Origin: Deltaproteobacteria bacterium
Lineage (GTDB): Bacteria > Desulfobacterota > Binatia > UTPRO1
Length of the DNA: 64,000 nt
Reading direction: 5' to 3'
NCBI GenBank assembly: GCA_020848745.1
Contig: JADLHM010000055.1
Coordinates: 1 to 64,000 of the forward strand
The position numbers and the translations under genes were made by a program. The notes below the pieces were generated by a model. That model did no database searches. It was not told the DNA's origin and saw only the letters and a list, made by a program, of their open reading frames with translations. This document shows, piece after piece, positions 1 to 8,945 of this stretch; position 1 is the stretch's first letter, and each line of letters starts with the position of its first letter.

Positions 1-670
1 CCTTGGTGACGGCGCGGGTGATGAGGGCGGTGCGCTTCTCCTGGAGCAGCTCGATCAGCCGCTCCTTCTTCGCCACCAGCCCATCGATCCGCGCCGTCTC
101 CCGGTCGAGGAACGCGGCGATGGCGCGTTGCTCGGGTTCGGGGGGAAGCGGGTGCTTCAGGTTCTCTGCGAACGCTTCCGGGACTCGCTTCTGCCCTCCT
201 GCGCCATACATCTCGGCCTCCCCCAGCCGTCGAAAGGCGTCGGACAGAGTGACGTAGAACAGATACTGGCCGTCTACAGCGTCGAGCGCTCGCAGTACAT
301 GCAGCTCGGTAGTTCCGAAGGCGATGCCATTTGTCAGGCCGGCTGCCAATGCCCCTTTGCCGTTCTCGAAGCACGGCGTGATCTTGGCGACGACAACATC
401 CCCGTTCGCGAAGTACGTGTATCCTGAGCCAACGTCAGCCAATGGTTTGATTCTGGAGAGATCCAGTCCGCCATACTCGCCGACAGCTTCCATTGGCACG
501 AATGAGACCTCAGCGTCATGTGCGAGTCTGCGCGCTGCGAGCGGCGACGGATTCAGCTCAACGCCGAACTTCAGCCGCTTCACCTCCCAGTGCGCCGGAA
601 TTTCCCGCAGCCACTCGACGCCGGAGTCCTTGTAGGTCGGGTATGGCTTGAGGCGTCGCAGCGCGCTCAT
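1..670 (-). CDS. hsdS: Type I restriction-modification specificity subunit HsdS (C-terminus outside window)
   Basis: The first 223 codons of a DNA-specificity subunit; the frame is open to the window edge, so the 3' part is missing. After ATG (670) the protein has the family opening GVEWLREIPAHWE, then one target-recognition domain (about residues 20-165). A central conserved region follows, with the signature PEPEQRAIAAFLDRE and ETARIDGLVAKKERL, the helix that spaces the two recognition domains. HsdS sets which bipartite site HsdM methylates and HsdR cuts. The ATG overlaps the abiEii stop by four bases, so it is the last visible gene of the hsdM-abiE-hsdS operon. The second recognition domain and hsdR should lie further left if the system is complete. 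Confidence 0.88.
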   Translation of the reverse strand, partial: MSALRRLKPYPTYKDSGVEWLREIPAHWEVKRLKFGVELNPSPLAARRLAHDAEVSFVPMEAVGEYGGLDLSRIKPLADVGSGYTYFANGDVVVAKITPCFENGKGALAAGLTNGIAFGTTELHVLRALDAVDGQYLFYVTLSDAFRRLGEAEMYGAGGQKRVPEAFAENLKHPLPPEPEQRAIAAFLDRETARIDGLVAKKERLIELLQEKRTALITRAVTK

Positions 671-1584
671 TGCCACGGACCTCCCGGCGGCCACGCGCCT
701 GCGCTGGTTCCCTTGCCGCGCAGGTCGTTGAGCACCGGCGAGAGGAAGGCATGCAGCACGCGCGCGCACTCGTCGGCGAAGTCGGCCGGAACGTCGATCC
801 GTGCGCGGCGGACGAACGCGCGCACTTGTGCCGGACGCGAGGGGTTGTCCCAGTAGTCCCGCGTGAGCGCGAGCGGCGCATCCTGCGGAATCGACGTATG
901 GCGGCGCTCGAACGTGCGCCGCACTGCCTCAGTGAGCGTCGCGCGGTCGAACGCAAATCGCGATGCAAGGTAGTGCAGGTCGAAGAAATCCTTGATCCGG
1001 CTGTTGCGATCACCGAGCACCACCATCGCCTCGAACTTCTCTGCCACCACCGTCTCGCGGGGATAGGCGAACAGCTCGGGCGCGGGAAAGTCGAGGAGCG
1101 TCGGGAAGATGCAGGGCTGCGGCGGTGGCCAGACCTCGTCGGCCACGCCCATATCGATCTGCAGCATCAGGCGCGCTTGCCCGCAGCGCGCGCGCAGCGT
1201 GGCGCGGGTGCCGGCGTACTCGTCCTCGGCGCGAATCGCTTCGAGGCGAAGGCGTTCGCCGTCGAAGTCGATGCCGTCGGGTGGTGCCGGTGTGGCGACG
1301 ATCATCTGCAGGTCGTGACGGATTGCGTCGAACGTGCCGTCGCCCCGGCGCAGCAGGTCGAGGTCGAGCGTCGCCCGGTAGGGCCGCTCCGACCAGAGTC
1401 GCAGGAGCATCGCCCTCTTGAGCACGAACCGGTCGCGTCGATCAGAGACGGCGAGCCGGTAGAGGAAGCGCTCGAGGCAGTAGCTGGTGAGCAGCGTCTG
1501 GTAGTCGTCACCCGTCTGTCTCGCCCGGTTCAGCAGGCGTGCGGCCACCGAGGCGGCAAGGTTGGCCATGCCAGCGCGCGTCAT
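667..1584 (-). CDS. abiEii: AbiEii/AbiGii-type nucleotidyltransferase toxin
   Basis: A 305-aa protein of the AbiEii family, the toxin half of type IV (AbiE) toxin-antitoxin and phage-abortive systems. Related toxins transfer nucleotides, for example onto tRNA ends. The nucleotidyltransferase core is near the N-terminus: FVLKRAMLL (residues 53-61) followed by TLDLDLL, with the paired aspartates at about 74 and 76. A later stretch, YPRETVVAEKFEAMV, and then SRIKDFFDLHYL, are typical of the family. Many relatives read KGG or KGA where this one reads KRA (56-58), so activity should be tested. Start and stop overlap both neighbours by four bases (ATGA), implying coupled translation with the antitoxin and hsdS. 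Confidence 0.85.
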   Translation of the reverse strand: MTRAGMANLAASVAARLLNRARQTGDDYQTLLTSYCLERFLYRLAVSDRRDRFVLKRAMLLRLWSERPYRATLDLDLLRRGDGTFDAIRHDLQMIVATPAPPDGIDFDGERLRLEAIRAEDEYAGTRATLRARCGQARLMLQIDMGVADEVWPPPQPCIFPTLLDFPAPELFAYPRETVVAEKFEAMVVLGDRNSRIKDFFDLHYLASRFAFDRATLTEAVRRTFERRHTSIPQDAPLALTRDYWDNPSRPAQVRAFVRRARIDVPADFADECARVLHAFLSPVLNDLRGKGTSAGAWPPGGPWQ

Positions 1585-2183
1585 GCGATCGCGTCCAGGT
1601 AGGGCTGCATGACCCGGGCAACCCGGCAGATCCGGGCAAAGCGGGCAAGATCGTTCGCACCGCCGCGGTGCTTCCGACTGAAGTCGCGCAGTGCCTCCAC
1701 GGCGACGTCGATGCCGATCTTGTTGCGGTACTTGAAGCAGTCGGCCACCGTCTTGGCGGCCGAATAGACCCGCAGGGTGACGCCCTCCGCCCGGCGTTCC
1801 TCGATGCCTTCCGTGAGCGCCTCGCCGGAGAAGCGTGCGATCCGCAGGCGCGGGTAGTCGAGCCGCGGGCGGCGCGCCTTCTCGGGAAGCGCGACCCAGA
1901 CCTCGGCCGGCGATTGCGTGGTGAGACCGTGGAGTCGTAGCGCCGTGAGCAGGCAGAAGATGCCGTCGGGAACGCGGGTGGCGACTTGCGCCAGCGTGTG
2001 CTCCGCCGTGATCGAATGGCGAGCAGCGACATAAACGCCCCGAGCCTCTCGCACCACCAGTCCCTGGTCCACGAGGCGAGCAAGCTGCGCGCGGGTAATG
2101 TCGTAGGCCGCGAGATCCCTGGGGCGCGTGATTCCCTTCTGCTCGATGAGCCGCAGCGCTCGTTCCTTGATCGGTTTCGCCAT
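1581..2183 (-). CDS. abiEi: AbiEi-type antitoxin / transcriptional regulator
   Basis: A 200-aa protein matching AbiEi antitoxins: an N-terminal winged helix-turn-helix (ITRAQLARLVDQGLVVREA, about residues 27-45, then RGVYVA), followed by the C-terminal domain with HTLAQVATRVPDG, LTALRLHGLT and the basic stretch FKYRNKIGIDVAVEAL. In characterised AbiE systems AbiEi neutralises the toxin and represses its own promoter through inverted repeats. The chosen ATG (2183) starts the conserved MAKPIKERAL sequence; the frame is open further upstream, but that part crosses the palindromes and is not family-like. The stop overlaps the abiEii start (ATGA). Confidence 0.85.
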   Translation of the reverse strand: MAKPIKERALRLIEQKGITRPRDLAAYDITRAQLARLVDQGLVVREARGVYVAARHSITAEHTLAQVATRVPDGIFCLLTALRLHGLTTQSPAEVWVALPEKARRPRLDYPRLRIARFSGEALTEGIEERRAEGVTLRVYSAAKTVADCFKYRNKIGIDVAVEALRDFSRKHRGGANDLARFARICRVARVMQPYLDAIA

Positions 2184-2202
2184 GGTTCCCGGATGATACG
2201 AA

Positions 2203-2232
2203 ACGTCGGGGGTTGTCGACAAGCCCCGACGT
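2203..2232. promoter_or_regulatory. 30-bp palindrome upstream of abiEi (candidate AbiEi operator)
   Basis: ACGTCGGGG and CCCCGACGT flank a perfect inner palindrome, TTGTCGACAA, giving a 30-bp near-perfect dyad with one mismatched pair. It sits 20 bp before the abiEi start. On the minus strand a weak promoter (TTGCGC, 16 bp, GATACG) can be drawn so that the dyad covers the region just after the -10. AbiEi proteins are known to bind inverted repeats at their own promoter, so an autoregulatory operator is the simplest reading; binding is inferred. Confidence 0.55.
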
Positions 2233-2257
2233 ATCAGTACTAGGCAGTACGGCGCAA

Positions 2258-2289
2258 AATGTCGGCCCTTGCGAGCATTTGCCGACATT
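2258..2289. promoter_or_regulatory. Second inverted repeat between hsdM and abiEi
   Basis: AATGTCGGC (2258-2266) and GCCGACATT (2281-2289) form a perfect 9-bp inverted repeat with a 14-base spacer, starting 8 bp after the hsdM stop. Its half-site shares the GTCGG core with the longer palindrome next to it, which suggests two sites for the same protein. A weak hsdM terminator is the alternative, but no T-run follows. Confidence 0.4.
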
Positions 2290-2297
2290 CCGCGTAG

Positions 2298-4457
2298 TCA
2301 GCTCACCCGCCCCCCCGTCACCTCCGCCAGCATCCGCACGATGTCGCCCTCGATGGCGCGGATGTCGGCCTCGATCGCCTCGAGCGGGCGGGGCGGGGTG
2401 TAGCGATAGAAGTAGCGGTTGAAGTTGATCTCGTAGCCGATGACGCCGACGCGGCCGTCCCGCGGGTCGCGCTTCCGGATGTCGATCCAGGCGTCCGGCA
2501 CGTGCGGGCGGACCTCGCGGTCGAAGAAGGTCCGCACGCTCGCCGGCACGCCATCCGCTCCGGCGGGATCGTCGCCATCGGGGAGCGGCACGCTCTCGGT
2601 GTCGCGCAGCTCGGGATCGGGCTCGGGGTTGCCGTCTTTGTCGCGGCAGATCGCGGCGGTTTCGTCGCGCTCGGAGAGGGCCGACAGGATCGCCTTCCCG
2701 GCCGGCGCCGGGAGTTTGAGGCCAGCCTTGCGGGTCGCGGCGCCGAGTGCGCGCTCGAACTCGTCGCGGTCCTTGAAAAGCGTCTCGGGCAGGCCGCGCA
2801 GCAGGGCGCGGATGGCATCCTGGAGCTTCCGTCCTTCGGCCTGTTCCTCGGCACCGGCGGCGCCCTTCTTCTTCGACTGGGCGAGATTCTGGAATCCCTT
2901 CTCGTCGTCGAGCCGCGCGATGCGCTCGGGCGTCGCCTGGAAATTGAGCCGCAGCGGTCGCTCGACGGTGATCTTGCGGAGGCCGAAGTGCGTGGTCGGG
3001 AAGACACGGCTCACGACCAAATCTTCTTCTTCCTTCCCGTCCTTCGTGATCCGGCGCGTGTCGCCGTCCCGGAAGTCGGCGAGGATCCTCAGGATGTCCT
3101 GCGCGCGCTCCGGCGGAATCTCGCGGCGTTTGTCGCCGAGGCTCTTGCGCATCGGCACCCAGAAGCCGCTCGCGTCGATGAGCTGGACCTTGCCCTCGCG
3201 GGCCGCCGCCTTGCGGTTGGTCACGACCCAGACATAGGTCGCGATCCCGGTGTTGTAGAAGAGCTGCTCCGGCAGCGCGATCAGCGCCTCGAGCAGGTCG
3301 TGCTCCAGGATGAAGCGCCGGATTTCGCTCTCGCCGCTGCCGGCGTCGCCCGTGAACAGCGGCGAGCCGTTCATGATGACGGCGATGCGCGAGCCGCCTT
3401 CCTTCGGTTCCTTCACGTGCGCCAGCATGTGCAGCAGGAACAGGAGCTGGCCGTCGCTGATCCGCGGCAAGCCCGGGGCGAAGCGACCCGAAGCGCCGCG
3501 CTCGTGCTCGGCCCGCACGGCGTCCTCGTCGCGCTTCCAATCCTTGCCGTAGGGCGGGTTGGCGATCAGGTAGTCGAAGCCCCGGCCGGCGTGCCGGTCG
3601 TTCGACAGCACGGTGCCGTAGGCGATGTTGTCGGCGTCGCGTCCGGTCGGGTCCTTCATGAAAAAGTCCGACTTCGAGACGGCCCAGGTTTCCGGGTTCA
3701 CCTCCTGCCCGAAGAGGTGCATCTCCGCGTTCGGGTTGATCGCGGGCCGCAGCAGATCGCCGTTCTTGCGCAAGCCGACGGTGACGTGCTCCTTGGTGAT
3801 CATCAGCATGCCGCCTGAACCGCAGCAGGGGTCGTATACCGTGCAGACGACGCCCTTACGGCGCATTCGCGCTTCGTCGCCGGCCAGCATCAGGTCCACC
3901 ATCAGGTGAACCACGTCGCGCGGCGTGAAGTGCTCGCCGGGGTTCTCGTTCAGCGCCTCGTTGAACTTGCGGATCAGCTCTTCGAAGATCGTGCCCATCG
4001 TCGGGTTGTCGATTCTGTCCGGGTGCAGGTCGACCTTCTTGAAGCGCTCGAGCACCTGGAACAGCAGCCCCGCTTCGTCGAGCTTGCTGATCGTGTTGTC
4101 GAAGTCGAACTTCTCCAGCACCTCGCGCATGTTGGGGCTGAAGCCGGCGATGTAGTTGCGCAGATTGGCGGCGAGGTGCGGCGCGTCGGCGAGGAGCTTC
4201 TCGAAGTCGTACCGGGAGGTGTTGTAGAAGGCGAACCCGGATGCACGCCGGAGCTGGGCATCGAGATCCCCGAGCCCCTGGCCCTTGAGCTGCGCTCGAC
4301 GCTTGAGAACAGCGTCTTTCGTGCCAGCAAGCACGCAATCCAGGCGGCGGAGTACCGTGAGGGGTAGGATCACGTCCTGGTACTTCCCGCGCTTGAAAGT
4401 GTCGCGGATGAGGTCCGCGACCCCCCAGAGGAAGCTGACGATCTCGCTATGGTTCAC
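2298..4457 (-). CDS. hsdM: Type I restriction-modification DNA methyltransferase HsdM
   Basis: A 719-aa N6-adenine methylase subunit of a type I restriction-modification system. It has the N-terminal HsdM domain (VNHSEIVSFLWGVADLIRDTF onward), the SAM-binding motif DPCCGSGGML (about residues 209-218) and the catalytic NPPY (about 300-303). A long C-terminal region with coiled-coil character follows, longer than the roughly 500 aa common in the family. It modifies the site chosen by HsdS. The GTG at 4457 is preferred because a GGAG lies 9 bases upstream and the family begins at NHSEI; a GTG two codons earlier is possible. It is first in the operon; abiEi follows after 114 bp. Confidence 0.92.
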   Translation of the reverse strand: MNHSEIVSFLWGVADLIRDTFKRGKYQDVILPLTVLRRLDCVLAGTKDAVLKRRAQLKGQGLGDLDAQLRRASGFAFYNTSRYDFEKLLADAPHLAANLRNYIAGFSPNMREVLEKFDFDNTISKLDEAGLLFQVLERFKKVDLHPDRIDNPTMGTIFEELIRKFNEALNENPGEHFTPRDVVHLMVDLMLAGDEARMRRKGVVCTVYDPCCGSGGMLMITKEHVTVGLRKNGDLLRPAINPNAEMHLFGQEVNPETWAVSKSDFFMKDPTGRDADNIAYGTVLSNDRHAGRGFDYLIANPPYGKDWKRDEDAVRAEHERGASGRFAPGLPRISDGQLLFLLHMLAHVKEPKEGGSRIAVIMNGSPLFTGDAGSGESEIRRFILEHDLLEALIALPEQLFYNTGIATYVWVVTNRKAAAREGKVQLIDASGFWVPMRKSLGDKRREIPPERAQDILRILADFRDGDTRRITKDGKEEEDLVVSRVFPTTHFGLRKITVERPLRLNFQATPERIARLDDEKGFQNLAQSKKKGAAGAEEQAEGRKLQDAIRALLRGLPETLFKDRDEFERALGAATRKAGLKLPAPAGKAILSALSERDETAAICRDKDGNPEPDPELRDTESVPLPDGDDPAGADGVPASVRTFFDREVRPHVPDAWIDIRKRDPRDGRVGVIGYEINFNRYFYRYTPPRPLEAIEADIRAIEGDIVRMLAEVTGGRVS

Positions 4458-4506
4458 GGGCACACGCTCCGGTCCAGTCTTGGTTCTCGCAACGAGCCCT
4501 CGGGCT

Positions 4507-4578
4507 GTCTAACGTCTGGCGAGTCAGCCGCGCGTCGTCGAGCACGTGGGTCGCGAACGCGTGCCGGACCCCCGCATC
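4507..4578 (-). pseudogene. Remnant of a tyrosine recombinase (box II fossil)
   Basis: Reading the minus strand directly after the serine-hydrolase stop gives DAGVRHAFATHVLDD followed by ARLTRQTL. This matches the HxLRHxFATHLL box II of phage-type and integron-type tyrosine recombinases, including the catalytic His/Arg context. The rest of the gene is absent: the left side is cut off by the neighbour and the right side degenerates before a stop near 4447, inside the hsdM start region. It lies at the boundary of the restriction-modification operon and probably marks old mobility of this block. The match is short, so chance cannot be fully excluded. Confidence 0.5.
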
Positions 4579-5899
4579 ATACGGACTTCCGCGGCATCGC
4601 GCTTCGCTCGCGTTCATCGCGCGACAGGGCGTCCCACCAGTCGAATCCCGGCTCCTTGGGGCACACGCGGCTGATCTCCCGACTGATGGCGGCGAAGCGT
4701 CCGATCTCCGGATAGAGGAGGGGTTTCCCGCTGGTCATCAACGCGACCGTGATCTGCCGTTCGGGATCGGCCCAGCCCAGGACGGTGATGAAGCCGATGT
4801 GGCCGAAGGCATGGAACGTGTCCGGCCCCCAGAAGCTCATCCAGCGGCTGCCGAGCATGAATCCCATGCCGTAGCGTACCGGCATGGCGAGCGAGAAATC
4901 GAACTCGAGATACGACTGCTCGGAGACGGCACGCCGGATCGTGCGGGGCTCGAAAATACGGACACCGTCGAGCTCGCCGCCGTTCAGCAGCAGCTGGTAG
5001 AAGCGGCTGAGCTCGTTGGCGGTCGCGATCACGTTGCCCGAGGGGACGATGGCGGTCAGATACCGAGGATCGTTGCCCAGCTCGGGAACGCGCTCGAACT
5101 CGACGCCGAGGAAACGGCGGAAGATCCACGAGACGGGGGGGAGTACGGGAAGGCCGGTGAAGTGATTCGAGGCGACCCGATCGACGTCCTCGGGCGCGAC
5201 GCCGTAGTTCATCCAGCGAAATCCGAGCCGCTCCAGGATCTCGCACGCGAGCACGGTGCGAATGTCGTCGCCGGTGACGCGACGGACGATCTCGCCCAGG
5301 AGAAATCCTCCACTGATGGCATGGTAGGCGAGCCGCCGTCCGGCTCGCGAGACGGGCCGGGCGGCACAGAGCATGCGCAGGATCTCGGCGGGCTCATTCA
5401 GCAGGTCGAGGCGCATCGCCTCGGGCGGAATGTTGGGGACGCCCGCGCGGTGGGTGAGGACGTGCCGGATGGTGATCCATCGCTTCCCGTGCATCGCGAA
5501 CTCCGGAATGTATTCGCACACCGGGTCGTCGAGATGGAGCAGGTGCTGCTGGTCGAGCAGGTGGATCAGCATCGCGGTTACGGCCTTGCTTGCGGAGAAG
5601 ACGTTGAAGGGCGTATCCGGCGTCGCGAGCGTCCGCTGACCGTCGGCCGGATCGTGCGGACCTCCACCTTTCGCATAACCGATGGCCCGGTCGATCACGA
5701 CCTTGCCCCGGCGACGGATGCAGAGCTGCATGGCCGGGTGCACCCCGGCCGCGTAGAGCGACTCGACGGCCCTCCAGATCGCGTCGATGCCCGCGCCATC
5801 GAGCCCCACGGAGCGCGGATCGACCTCCCGGTCGGTCGCGATCGTCGTCACCGATTCGATGGATCCCGAGACGGGGACGCGGGTGACCAGAGAAAGCAT
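4577..5899 (-). CDS. Serine hydrolase of the beta-lactamase (class C / esterase) family
   Basis: A 440-aa serine hydrolase. The nucleophile motif SASK is at residues 102-105, the second motif is the Tyr in AYHAISGGFLLGE (Tyr192), and the KTG-equivalent box is HIG in FHAFGHIGF. This pattern is typical of the esterase or transesterase branch (EstB/LACTB-like) rather than antibiotic-hydrolysing enzymes. No clear signal peptide, so probably cytoplasmic. The ATG at 5899 gives a family-like N-terminus; in-frame starts upstream (ATG 5965, GTG 5977) are alternatives. The neighbour upstream on the same strand is the large secreted protease-like gene. Substrate unknown. Confidence 0.8.
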   Translation of the reverse strand: MLSLVTRVPVSGSIESVTTIATDREVDPRSVGLDGAGIDAIWRAVESLYAAGVHPAMQLCIRRRGKVVIDRAIGYAKGGGPHDPADGQRTLATPDTPFNVFSASKAVTAMLIHLLDQQHLLHLDDPVCEYIPEFAMHGKRWITIRHVLTHRAGVPNIPPEAMRLDLLNEPAEILRMLCAARPVSRAGRRLAYHAISGGFLLGEIVRRVTGDDIRTVLACEILERLGFRWMNYGVAPEDVDRVASNHFTGLPVLPPVSWIFRRFLGVEFERVPELGNDPRYLTAIVPSGNVIATANELSRFYQLLLNGGELDGVRIFEPRTIRRAVSEQSYLEFDFSLAMPVRYGMGFMLGSRWMSFWGPDTFHAFGHIGFITVLGWADPERQITVALMTSGKPLLYPEIGRFAAISREISRVCPKEPGFDWWDALSRDERERSAMPRKSV

Positions 5900-6010
5900 T
5901 GCGGATTCTCGCACGAACTCGGCTACCGTGCCAGGAGCCGCACCGCTCTGATCGCCTTCGACCATCACGGCGCACACGTGCGCTTGCCGATCCTGCGTCG
6001 CGACCGACTG

Positions 6011-8839
6011 CTATTCGCACGACGCGAAGGTGCAGAAGCCGTCCATGAACTTGCCGTCGCAGTAGTGGCACCAGTAGAGGGTGTCGTCGTTGCAGTCCGC
6101 GTCCGGGCAGACCGACGGTCCGCCCGGACCGCCGCAGAAGGTCGGCGGCAGATTGCCCATGTTGCCGCAGCAGCTGCTCGCGGTCGCGAAGCATTCGGGG
6201 TCGGACGCGATCCGCTCGGGCGTGCAGCAGGTCTTGAGCTGGGGATGGCAGCACTCGGTCGGCCCGCAGCCCGCCGGATCGCCGGGCGCGCAACCGCAGG
6301 TGCAATCTCCCCGGCAGCCGCCGGGACACGGTGAGTCGTCGGTGAGCTCGCACTCCTCGTTGGGATCGAGCTTGCCGTCGCCGCACTGCCCGCAGCCGCC
6401 GCAGTCGGGCTCGCAGTACCCGGGACGGGGTGCGCTCAGCGCGTTGCAGATTTCGCGATCGTTGCCGTCGCAGATCTCGCCGGGCTCCTTCACGCCGTTG
6501 CCGCACATCGGGCCCTGCCGGCACGTGCAGTCCGACAGGCACGTGCCGGGGCACGCGCCGTCCGCGGCGCCGTCGCACTCCTCGTCGCCGTTCACCTTGC
6601 CGTCGCCGCAACCGCGCACCTCGACCGAGGCGCAGGCCGTGCCGAGATACGGCGCGTCGGGATCGGTGCGGATCGAGACGCTCATGGCGTCCGTGCCGAC
6701 GTCCTCCTCGTCGGCCTCGTAGGTGACGGTCGGCGCGACGGTCTCGAACACGCCGCCCTCGTTGCCCATGCCGTCCTTCAAGAGGCCGGCCGACGTCGTG
6801 CTGGTCCACGCATGGCGGAGCTCGCAGTCGCCGGTGTTCTCGACGTGCGGTGTGAGCACGACGGCCTCTCCGTTCTCGAGCGACGAGGTCGGCGGAGTCA
6901 CCGTCGGCTTGCCGGCGTAGGCGAGGTGCGAGTCGCCGATCATGTGGAAGGTCGCGGGCGGCAGGTCGACGCGGCGGATCCCCTTCGGGGCGAGCCGCTT
7001 GACGGGCGCCGGATCGATCTTCACCGAACGCGCGAACGCGTCGCCGGTCGTCAGCAGGTGCTCCGCAATGTCCGGCACGAGCTGCCCCGTGACGACCCTT
7101 GCGAACGTCGTGCTCGTGGAGCCGACGTAGCCGAAGAACGTTCGCGCTCCCTTCTGGCGGAAGACGGCCGCTTCAACCGGGTCCTCGGCGCTGTGGCACT
7201 GGCTCGCGTAGACGAAGCCCTTGTCGAACTGCCCGCCGATCCGCCTCAGATACTCGGGCGCAAAGGCCCAGACGTTGAGGCCGCCCCCGTGGAGCTCTTC
7301 CGGGATGCCGATCACGAACGTCTCGTAGCGCTTGGTGGGGTCGGCGAAGGTCTGGTCGAACGCCTCCATCTCGGTCGCGGTCTGATCGGTCACGATCTCG
7401 ACGTGGCCGTGGTCGTCCAGGAATCCGTGGGTCGAGAAGAAGAGCGCCGACGCCGAGGTGACGTCGAGCACGGACGCCAGCGTGAGCTGCTTCACCGTCG
7501 TGGTGATCGGCAGGCACGAGTCGTCGAAAGCGGTCTTGGCTTTCGGCCAGTCGTCGGTGACCGGAAAGTATGCCGTCGTGAGGATGATTGCCTTCCGGTT
7601 GCCGATCAGGGTGCGGTCGGGCGCGGGAGGGCACGTCGCGGCACGGGCGCCGGCAGGTTGCGCGCGCCCGGCCGGTGGCGCGACGCCGCCTTCGTCGCGA
7701 GTGGCCGCGCCCTGCGTGACCGACGCGGTGTCGCTCGGCCGGGCGCTCAACAGGATGCCCCCCTGGAGGCCGGACGCGTAGCGGATCACGATGTCGAGGC
7801 CGTTGGCGCCGAGCCGCGCCTCGGCGACGCCGGGGAGCGCGGCGATCGCGCGGAGCGCGGCGAGTCGGGCGTTCAGCGAGTCGTCGAGGAGGGTCCGCTG
7901 CTCGGTCCAGATCCGGAGCGCGGCGTCCTGGGCGGCGAAGAGCGTCGTGACGTCGGCTTCGGTGAGCTCCGGCACCACCGGGATGCGGATCGGCGCGGAG
8001 GCGACGACCGTCCCGCCGACGGTTGCCTGCGCGACGAACGTCTGCTCGCCGAGCGCCGGCCCCGTCACGGTCGCGGTGCACGCGCGGAGGCCGTCGCCCG
8101 CGACGAGGTCGCCGCTCGCGGCGCCGCCGTCGTCGACGAGCAGGCAGACCGGCGGATCGACGGGCACGCCCGCGTCGAGACGGCGCACCGCCGCGCCGCC
8201 GCCGTCCGGCACGAGGCCGGCGGCGAGGCTCGCCTGGAAGACGAGGCTCGTCGGCGTGGCCACGGTGACGGCAGGCGGCATCGCGCGGAGCGTTCCCGTC
8301 AGCAGGCACGGCGATCCCGGATGCTTCTTCGGGAGGCCGTACTTCACCGCCTTCGGCTTCGTGGGCGGTTTCGTCGGCGGTTTGCCGAGGCGTTCGAGCG
8401 GCAGCAGCGCGCACGCGACGTCGTCGTCGGCGCGCAGCCGCGCCGTGAAGGTGGCGGGCAGCGGCGGCACCAGGAGACCCGAGCCCTTCGCTGCGAAGCG
8501 GCGCTTCTTGAGGTCGATCACGAGCTGCGAGACGCCGGGCGTGCGACTCGGCCCCTTGAAGGTGAGCTTCGTCTTCGTGCGCTTGAAGTCGGCGGCGCTG
8601 AGTCCGAGCGTCACGCCGTCGAGCTCGAAGACGATGCGGGATGCCGCCGCGAGGTCGAGCCCGGCGGGGTCGCGCGCGTCGAGCTCGCCCTTGATGGCGA
8701 ACGCATCGCCTTTCGCGGGGTGCACGACCACGCCCACGGACTTGATGGTGAGGGCGGGGGCGGCGGCCGGAATCAGCAGGACGAGGAGCACCGCACCGAG
8801 GACGGAGGAACGCGAGTCGGGCGGGAGGGGTCGCGGCAT
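6011..8839 (-). CDS. Secreted caspase/gingipain-like (clan CD) putative peptidase with cysteine-rich C-terminus
   Basis: A 942-aa exported protein with a signal peptide (VLGAVLLVLLIPAAAPA). Residues about 30-300 are beta-rich without a recognised fold. A central domain (about 410-620) shows the clan CD layout: the hydrophobic block ALFFSTHGF (His471) and, about 77 residues on, GFVYASQCHS (Cys548), followed by FHMIGDSHLAY, which resembles the GDP-x-L tail of C25 peptidases. The last 200 residues hold repeated CGDGKVNGDEECDG / CGNGVKEPGEICDG units of the DUF4215 type and more than 40 cysteines, suggesting an extracellular disulphide-bonded stalk. Peptidase activity is inferred from the dyad and its context. 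The start is placed at the ATG giving a proper signal peptide (8839). Confidence 0.7.
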   Translation of the reverse strand: MPRPLPPDSRSSVLGAVLLVLLIPAAAPALTIKSVGVVVHPAKGDAFAIKGELDARDPAGLDLAAASRIVFELDGVTLGLSAADFKRTKTKLTFKGPSRTPGVSQLVIDLKKRRFAAKGSGLLVPPLPATFTARLRADDDVACALLPLERLGKPPTKPPTKPKAVKYGLPKKHPGSPCLLTGTLRAMPPAVTVATPTSLVFQASLAAGLVPDGGGAAVRRLDAGVPVDPPVCLLVDDGGAASGDLVAGDGLRACTATVTGPALGEQTFVAQATVGGTVVASAPIRIPVVPELTEADVTTLFAAQDAALRIWTEQRTLLDDSLNARLAALRAIAALPGVAEARLGANGLDIVIRYASGLQGGILLSARPSDTASVTQGAATRDEGGVAPPAGRAQPAGARAATCPPAPDRTLIGNRKAIILTTAYFPVTDDWPKAKTAFDDSCLPITTTVKQLTLASVLDVTSASALFFSTHGFLDDHGHVEIVTDQTATEMEAFDQTFADPTKRYETFVIGIPEELHGGGLNVWAFAPEYLRRIGGQFDKGFVYASQCHSAEDPVEAAVFRQKGARTFFGYVGSTSTTFARVVTGQLVPDIAEHLLTTGDAFARSVKIDPAPVKRLAPKGIRRVDLPPATFHMIGDSHLAYAGKPTVTPPTSSLENGEAVVLTPHVENTGDCELRHAWTSTTSAGLLKDGMGNEGGVFETVAPTVTYEADEEDVGTDAMSVSIRTDPDAPYLGTACASVEVRGCGDGKVNGDEECDGAADGACPGTCLSDCTCRQGPMCGNGVKEPGEICDGNDREICNALSAPRPGYCEPDCGGCGQCGDGKLDPNEECELTDDSPCPGGCRGDCTCGCAPGDPAGCGPTECCHPQLKTCCTPERIASDPECFATASSCCGNMGNLPPTFCGGPGGPSVCPDADCNDDTLYWCHYCDGKFMDGFCTFASCE

Positions 8840-8945
8840 GGAGCACCGGACGAAACGTCCTTCCGCTAGCATGGAAGTACGGCGCGAGGCGACCGGAATC
8901 TACCCAGCCGCGACCCGGACACCTCGCGAGCACCTCGTCGACGGC

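Follow-up and report, generated by a model that had tools for sequence, protein, structure and literature searches.

The locus at positions 6,011 to 8,839 of the window, the whole 64,000-nucleotide stretch of Deltaproteobacteria DNA that was analysed, raises the question of whether it encodes an exported peptidase of the caspase type and, if so, to which family such an enzyme would belong. Searches of Pfam, NCBIfam and PADLOC with the whole window protein returned no family, and the sequence search of the PDB yielded one match only, at chance level.

Gene, export signal and the His-Cys pair

The coding sequence lies on the minus strand (8839..6011; all features of the protein given below are on this strand) and is backed by homology of residues 24–788 to the relative L003 (29% identity, E 5e-40), while the plus-strand frame over 6011–8839 is interrupted by a stop. 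An alternative ATG, in frame at 8872, would lengthen the protein by 11 amino acids; translation from 8839 begins with a clear signal peptide (residues 1–29, 8753..8839), with cleavage assigned by inspection after APA (SSVLGAVLLVLLIPAAAPA, followed by LT). Signal peptides or lipoboxes were likewise found by inspection in every relative with a complete N-terminus. The length of 942 aa and the signal peptide are thus as originally predicted.

Using tblastn with the window protein we retrieved L003 and L004, and a three-member profile then added L033 and L034; within the class, the family is present in 5 of 148 genomes. In the phylum L039–L042 were added elsewhere (6 of 395 genomes), and L070 and L071 were found in one further genome, so that the family as analysed here comprises eleven members in ten genomes including that of the window, i.e. 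ten relatives in nine genomes. L047 is the same contig as L003, from a groundwater MAG labelled Deltaproteobacteria bacterium. L070 (G430, contig C3) and L071 (G430, contig C64) are two close copies in the lipoprotein form; around the Cys they read CRGLSS, which recalls the QACRG motif of caspases. Since two genomes of the same genus and three of the same family as the window genome lack the family, the gene is best regarded as accessory, and the plasmid and viral collections that we searched contained no match. This sporadic presence says nothing about function.

The original prediction proposed a catalytic pair formed by His in STHG and Cys in SQCHS, 77 residues apart, and named the retention of both residues in homologues as a check. 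Both motifs are confirmed: STHG covers residues 469–472 (7424..7435; His471 at 7427–7429) and SQCHS residues 546–550 (7190..7204; Cys548, the proposed nucleophile, at 7196–7198), each dyad residue being preceded by a hydrophobic run (ALFFSTHG and FVYASQC). His-Gly and Cys are kept in 11/11 members. In an alignment of nine members with 29% mean column identity the only invariant columns were H471, G472, C548 and G564, and with all eleven members H, G and C remain. G564 belongs to a KGA motif (residues 563–565, 7145..7153), of which GA is present in most members. The spacing between His and Cys is 65–98 residues in ten members and 39 in the eleventh; in the window protein the two motifs are separated by a long insert (residues 473–545, 7205..7423), possibly a lid or specificity loop.

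Because profile searches favour the motif itself, we made a version of the three-member profile in which the H and C columns, together with six columns on either side, were hidden. L033 (8e-19) and L034 (3e-15) were nevertheless recovered, and their H and C fell within the hidden columns. L039 reaches only 0.01 and L040–L042 are missed; for these distant members, which are not found without the motif, conservation of the dyad is therefore partly circular.

Relationship of the core to CHAT and C25

Clan CD is defined by the His-Cys order and by the positions of the two residues after strands 3 and 4 (PMC4357240), and in sequence the catalytic core (residues 412–645, 6905..7606) agrees with this definition. 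In profile-profile comparison (hhalign) of the eleven-member core against domain sets from the same phylum, the core matched CHAT (PF12770; 95.9%, P 5e-9, 162 columns) and C25 (PF01364; 79.2%, P 1.6e-5, 180 columns), and the two dyad residues were in register in both alignments. As a yardstick, two accepted clan CD families, C25 and C14, scored 66% against each other in the same test, and C25 scored 96% against CHAT. None of 200 block-shuffled profiles reached either score (maximum 23.9 versus 65.7 for CHAT and 25.2 versus 47.3 for C25), and reversed profiles gave 0.25–0.48%. With H and C masked, 70.7% was retained against CHAT and 31% against C25. Two disjoint halves of the family scored 94.7% and 91.3% against CHAT, and the family minus the window protein 96.6%; the window core alone matched CHAT weakly (0.46%), though with H and C in register. 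A smaller C25 set had given 3.7%, which we attribute to profile depth since the larger set gave 79%. Two AlphaFold2 runs on 2–3 alignment rows (window protein and L047 only) gave no confident model of the core (pLDDT 39.0 and 35.7), so that the mutual placement of H471 and C548 is a prediction from sequence.

In these alignments THG lies over ATHG, GHG or GHS, C548 over the catalytic Cys and GA over the C25 GA. The ATFHMIGDSHL stretch (residues 629–639, 6923..6955) corresponds to the C25 'lGDP' and CHAT 'WASFQLTG' ends, ATFHMIGDS aligning with the C25 'GDP' end, or with the CHAT end when the window sequence is used alone. The GDSHL tail that had been read as C25-like is indeed present, from residue 635, and in register with the C25 end; GD is not family-wide, however, and GDSHL is missing from most relatives. 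The C25-like label as such holds only in part: the core is related to C25, but among clan CD profiles CHAT comes closest, and the C25 match covers profile columns 335–533 of 629, that is, the caspase-fold half. Profile searches had been suggested as a check, and here hhalign separates C25 (79.2%) from C14 (0.3%), while Pfam matches neither. As closest relatives, C14 (PF00656), with no Pfam match either, and C11 (PF03415; 0.6%) were rejected: caspases, metacaspases and clostripain share the clan CD dyad order with the core, but their profiles do not match. C13, C50, C80 and C84 had no match to the window protein in the Pfam scan.

Could the family then simply belong to C25 (gingipains) or to CHAT and escape the Pfam models through divergence alone? 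The profile matches above are what such a reading would predict. Nevertheless, nine scanned members had no peptidase match in Pfam (with limits of E 10 for the window protein and E 1 for the relatives); this includes the CHAT model at the same limits, and the C25 model is silent in the window protein, the scanned relatives and the window's own genome. TPR families are likewise absent from every scanned member, and the family differs from both in its N-terminal module and longer His-Cys insert. The TPR-CHAT protease of Craspase, which is separase-like, resembles the core in dyad order and motif (ATHG and AC) and in a helix region after the Cys; its dyad is H585/C627, and mutation of C627 abolishes activity (PMC9729208). 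The family lacks TPRs, is exported and carries an α2-β3 module upstream, and its usual spacing contrasts with the 43–52 residues of most CHAT proteins and the 42 of Craspase. Gingipains are alike in being exported, in the caspase-fold half with H, C, GA and a GDP-like end, and in a possible N-terminal pro-region, whereas their N-terminal subdomain is unmatched in hhalign and C25 spacing is 30–43. We found no description of an exported CHAT-like family in a literature search of partial coverage. Export is not unprecedented for CHAT, as L091, a CHAT protein of the phylum, has a signal-peptide-like start. Taken together, we consider straightforward membership in either family unlikely. Our preferred reading, to which we assign a probability of roughly 70%, is that the sequence encodes a cysteine peptidase of clan CD that is exported and whose family, as yet without a profile model, is related both to CHAT and to the catalytic half of C25.

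Modules around the core and the genomic setting

The N-terminal beta-rich domain (residues 30–148, 8396..8752) is common to L003 and L033 (E 9e-4) and, in a search of 58 genomes, absent from the others. It is followed by an Ig-like, choice-of-anchor X-like stretch (residues 188–291, 7967..8278), assigned by alignment to L003 only: the counterpart in L003 matches NCBIfam NF041940 (E 2.5e-7), and the window protein has no NCBIfam match of its own there. Residues 292–366 (7742..7966) form the α2-β3 module, a possible pro- or regulatory domain, modelled by AlphaFold2 as two helices and three strands (pLDDT about 61–86 by 10-residue block). This module is conserved between both subgroups of the family (hhalign 84.9%, 0/200 shuffles), and L040, L041, L070 and L071 also have it upstream; fold searches with the model returned background-level hits only (best Foldseek E 0.48; VIA Z no higher than 6.3). 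In G233, at L039, module (1–675) and core (1408–2292) are in separate frames with a pentapeptide-repeat-like ORF (731–1360) between them, which may be a natural split or an insertion. Between module and core of the window protein lies an Ala/Pro/Arg-rich linker (residues 367–411, 7607..7741), a candidate processing region recognised by its composition and low pLDDT, and a further beta-rich domain, aligned to L003, connects core and tail (residues 646–735, 6635..6904). The expectation of a new architecture thus stands, in that neither Pfam nor NCBIfam has a model for it.

The last 199 residues (744–942, 6014..6610) contain 34 Cys, arranged in repeats of the CGDGxxxxxEeCD type that occur in many proteins of the class. 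The claim of a disulphide-rich tail is therefore upheld but its assignment to DUF4215 is not: the tail shares the disulphide-rich CGDG...ECD signature, yet the Pfam model (PF13948) has no match in it, nor has any other Pfam or NCBIfam family. Elsewhere in the window's genome (G000) there are 68 DUF4215 matches, on contigs C10, C38, C121 and others (L022–L029), with up to a dozen or more per open frame, so that this genome is well supplied with exported proteins rich in disulphides. The C-terminal tails of the relatives vary: Cys-rich in L034 as in the window protein, choice-of-anchor L in L004 and weakly in L033, an acidic disulphide repeat in L003 (below its cut-off), Glucodextran_B in L040 and a Vgb-like propeller in L034.

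The class abounds in secreted proteins whose tails are Cys-rich or of the choice-of-anchor kind and recur from protein to protein, which gives some room to a transpeptidase or sortase-like anchoring enzyme of the same fold, in which the Cys548 thioester would be resolved by an amine and not by water. PorU, which acts as a sortase in type IX secretion, belongs to the C25 family; the dyad would be the same and the protein is exported. With 5/148 genomes of the class, however, the family is too rare for a housekeeping sorter, no shared C-terminal sorting signal came to notice, and we regard such a role as improbable. That the caspase fold serves here as a non-catalytic binding or structural module, as the divergence of the core might suggest, is very improbable, since H, G, C and one Gly held invariant in nine members at 29% mean identity are what one would expect of an active site.

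The next co-directional gene downstream (4577–5977, minus strand) encodes a beta-lactamase-like PF00144 serine hydrolase, with its listed start 33 bases past the stop of the protease gene; it is not found beside the relatives examined, and among three loci examined there were no conserved gene neighbours. Further on are an HsdM type I methylase gene (2298–4463, minus strand) and an AbiEi/AbiEii pair (1581–2288 and about 670–1590), a type IV toxin-antitoxin system. Together these form a small defence cluster (670–4463, minus strand) two genes from the protease. We rejected a role of the protease in a defence island: HsdM and AbiE are nearby, but the examined relatives share no neighbours and PADLOC gave no match.

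Proposed mechanism and significance

If the protein is the exported clan CD peptidase that we prefer, Cys548, with His471 as its partner, would attack peptide bonds in secreted or envelope proteins. The gingipain prodomain confers latency (PMC4357240), and by analogy the α2-β3 module and linker may suppress activity until cleavage within the linker releases it; the proposed catalysis follows the example of gingipain and TPR-CHAT. The long His-Cys insert could shape or cover the substrate site as a lid or specificity loop, and the Ig-like domains and Cys-rich tail might tether or display it on the cell surface. The surface location and the action on neighbours or self-proteins that had been suggested originally are conjectural. 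As a tentative extension, less likely than the core assignment itself, we suggest a new clan CD family at the CHAT/C25 branch, in which an α2-β3 prodomain is joined by a cleavable linker to a core that bears a long lid between His and Cys: a zymogen that would be activated outside the cytoplasm, distributed sporadically between lineages and fitted with exchangeable anchoring tails.

From its sequence, this is probably a genuine new protease family, distantly related to caspase-type enzymes and predicted to be active. Since the profile libraries that we searched have no model of it, its genes are likely to be annotated as hypothetical, and the practical interest of the finding is that of an unannotated protease family. 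The familiar CHAT-type proteases (Craspase, separase-like) are regulated enzymes that act inside the cell, and the familiar C25 peptidases are secreted. If our reading is correct, an exported family that matches both profiles and has its own upstream module would help to link the two branches.
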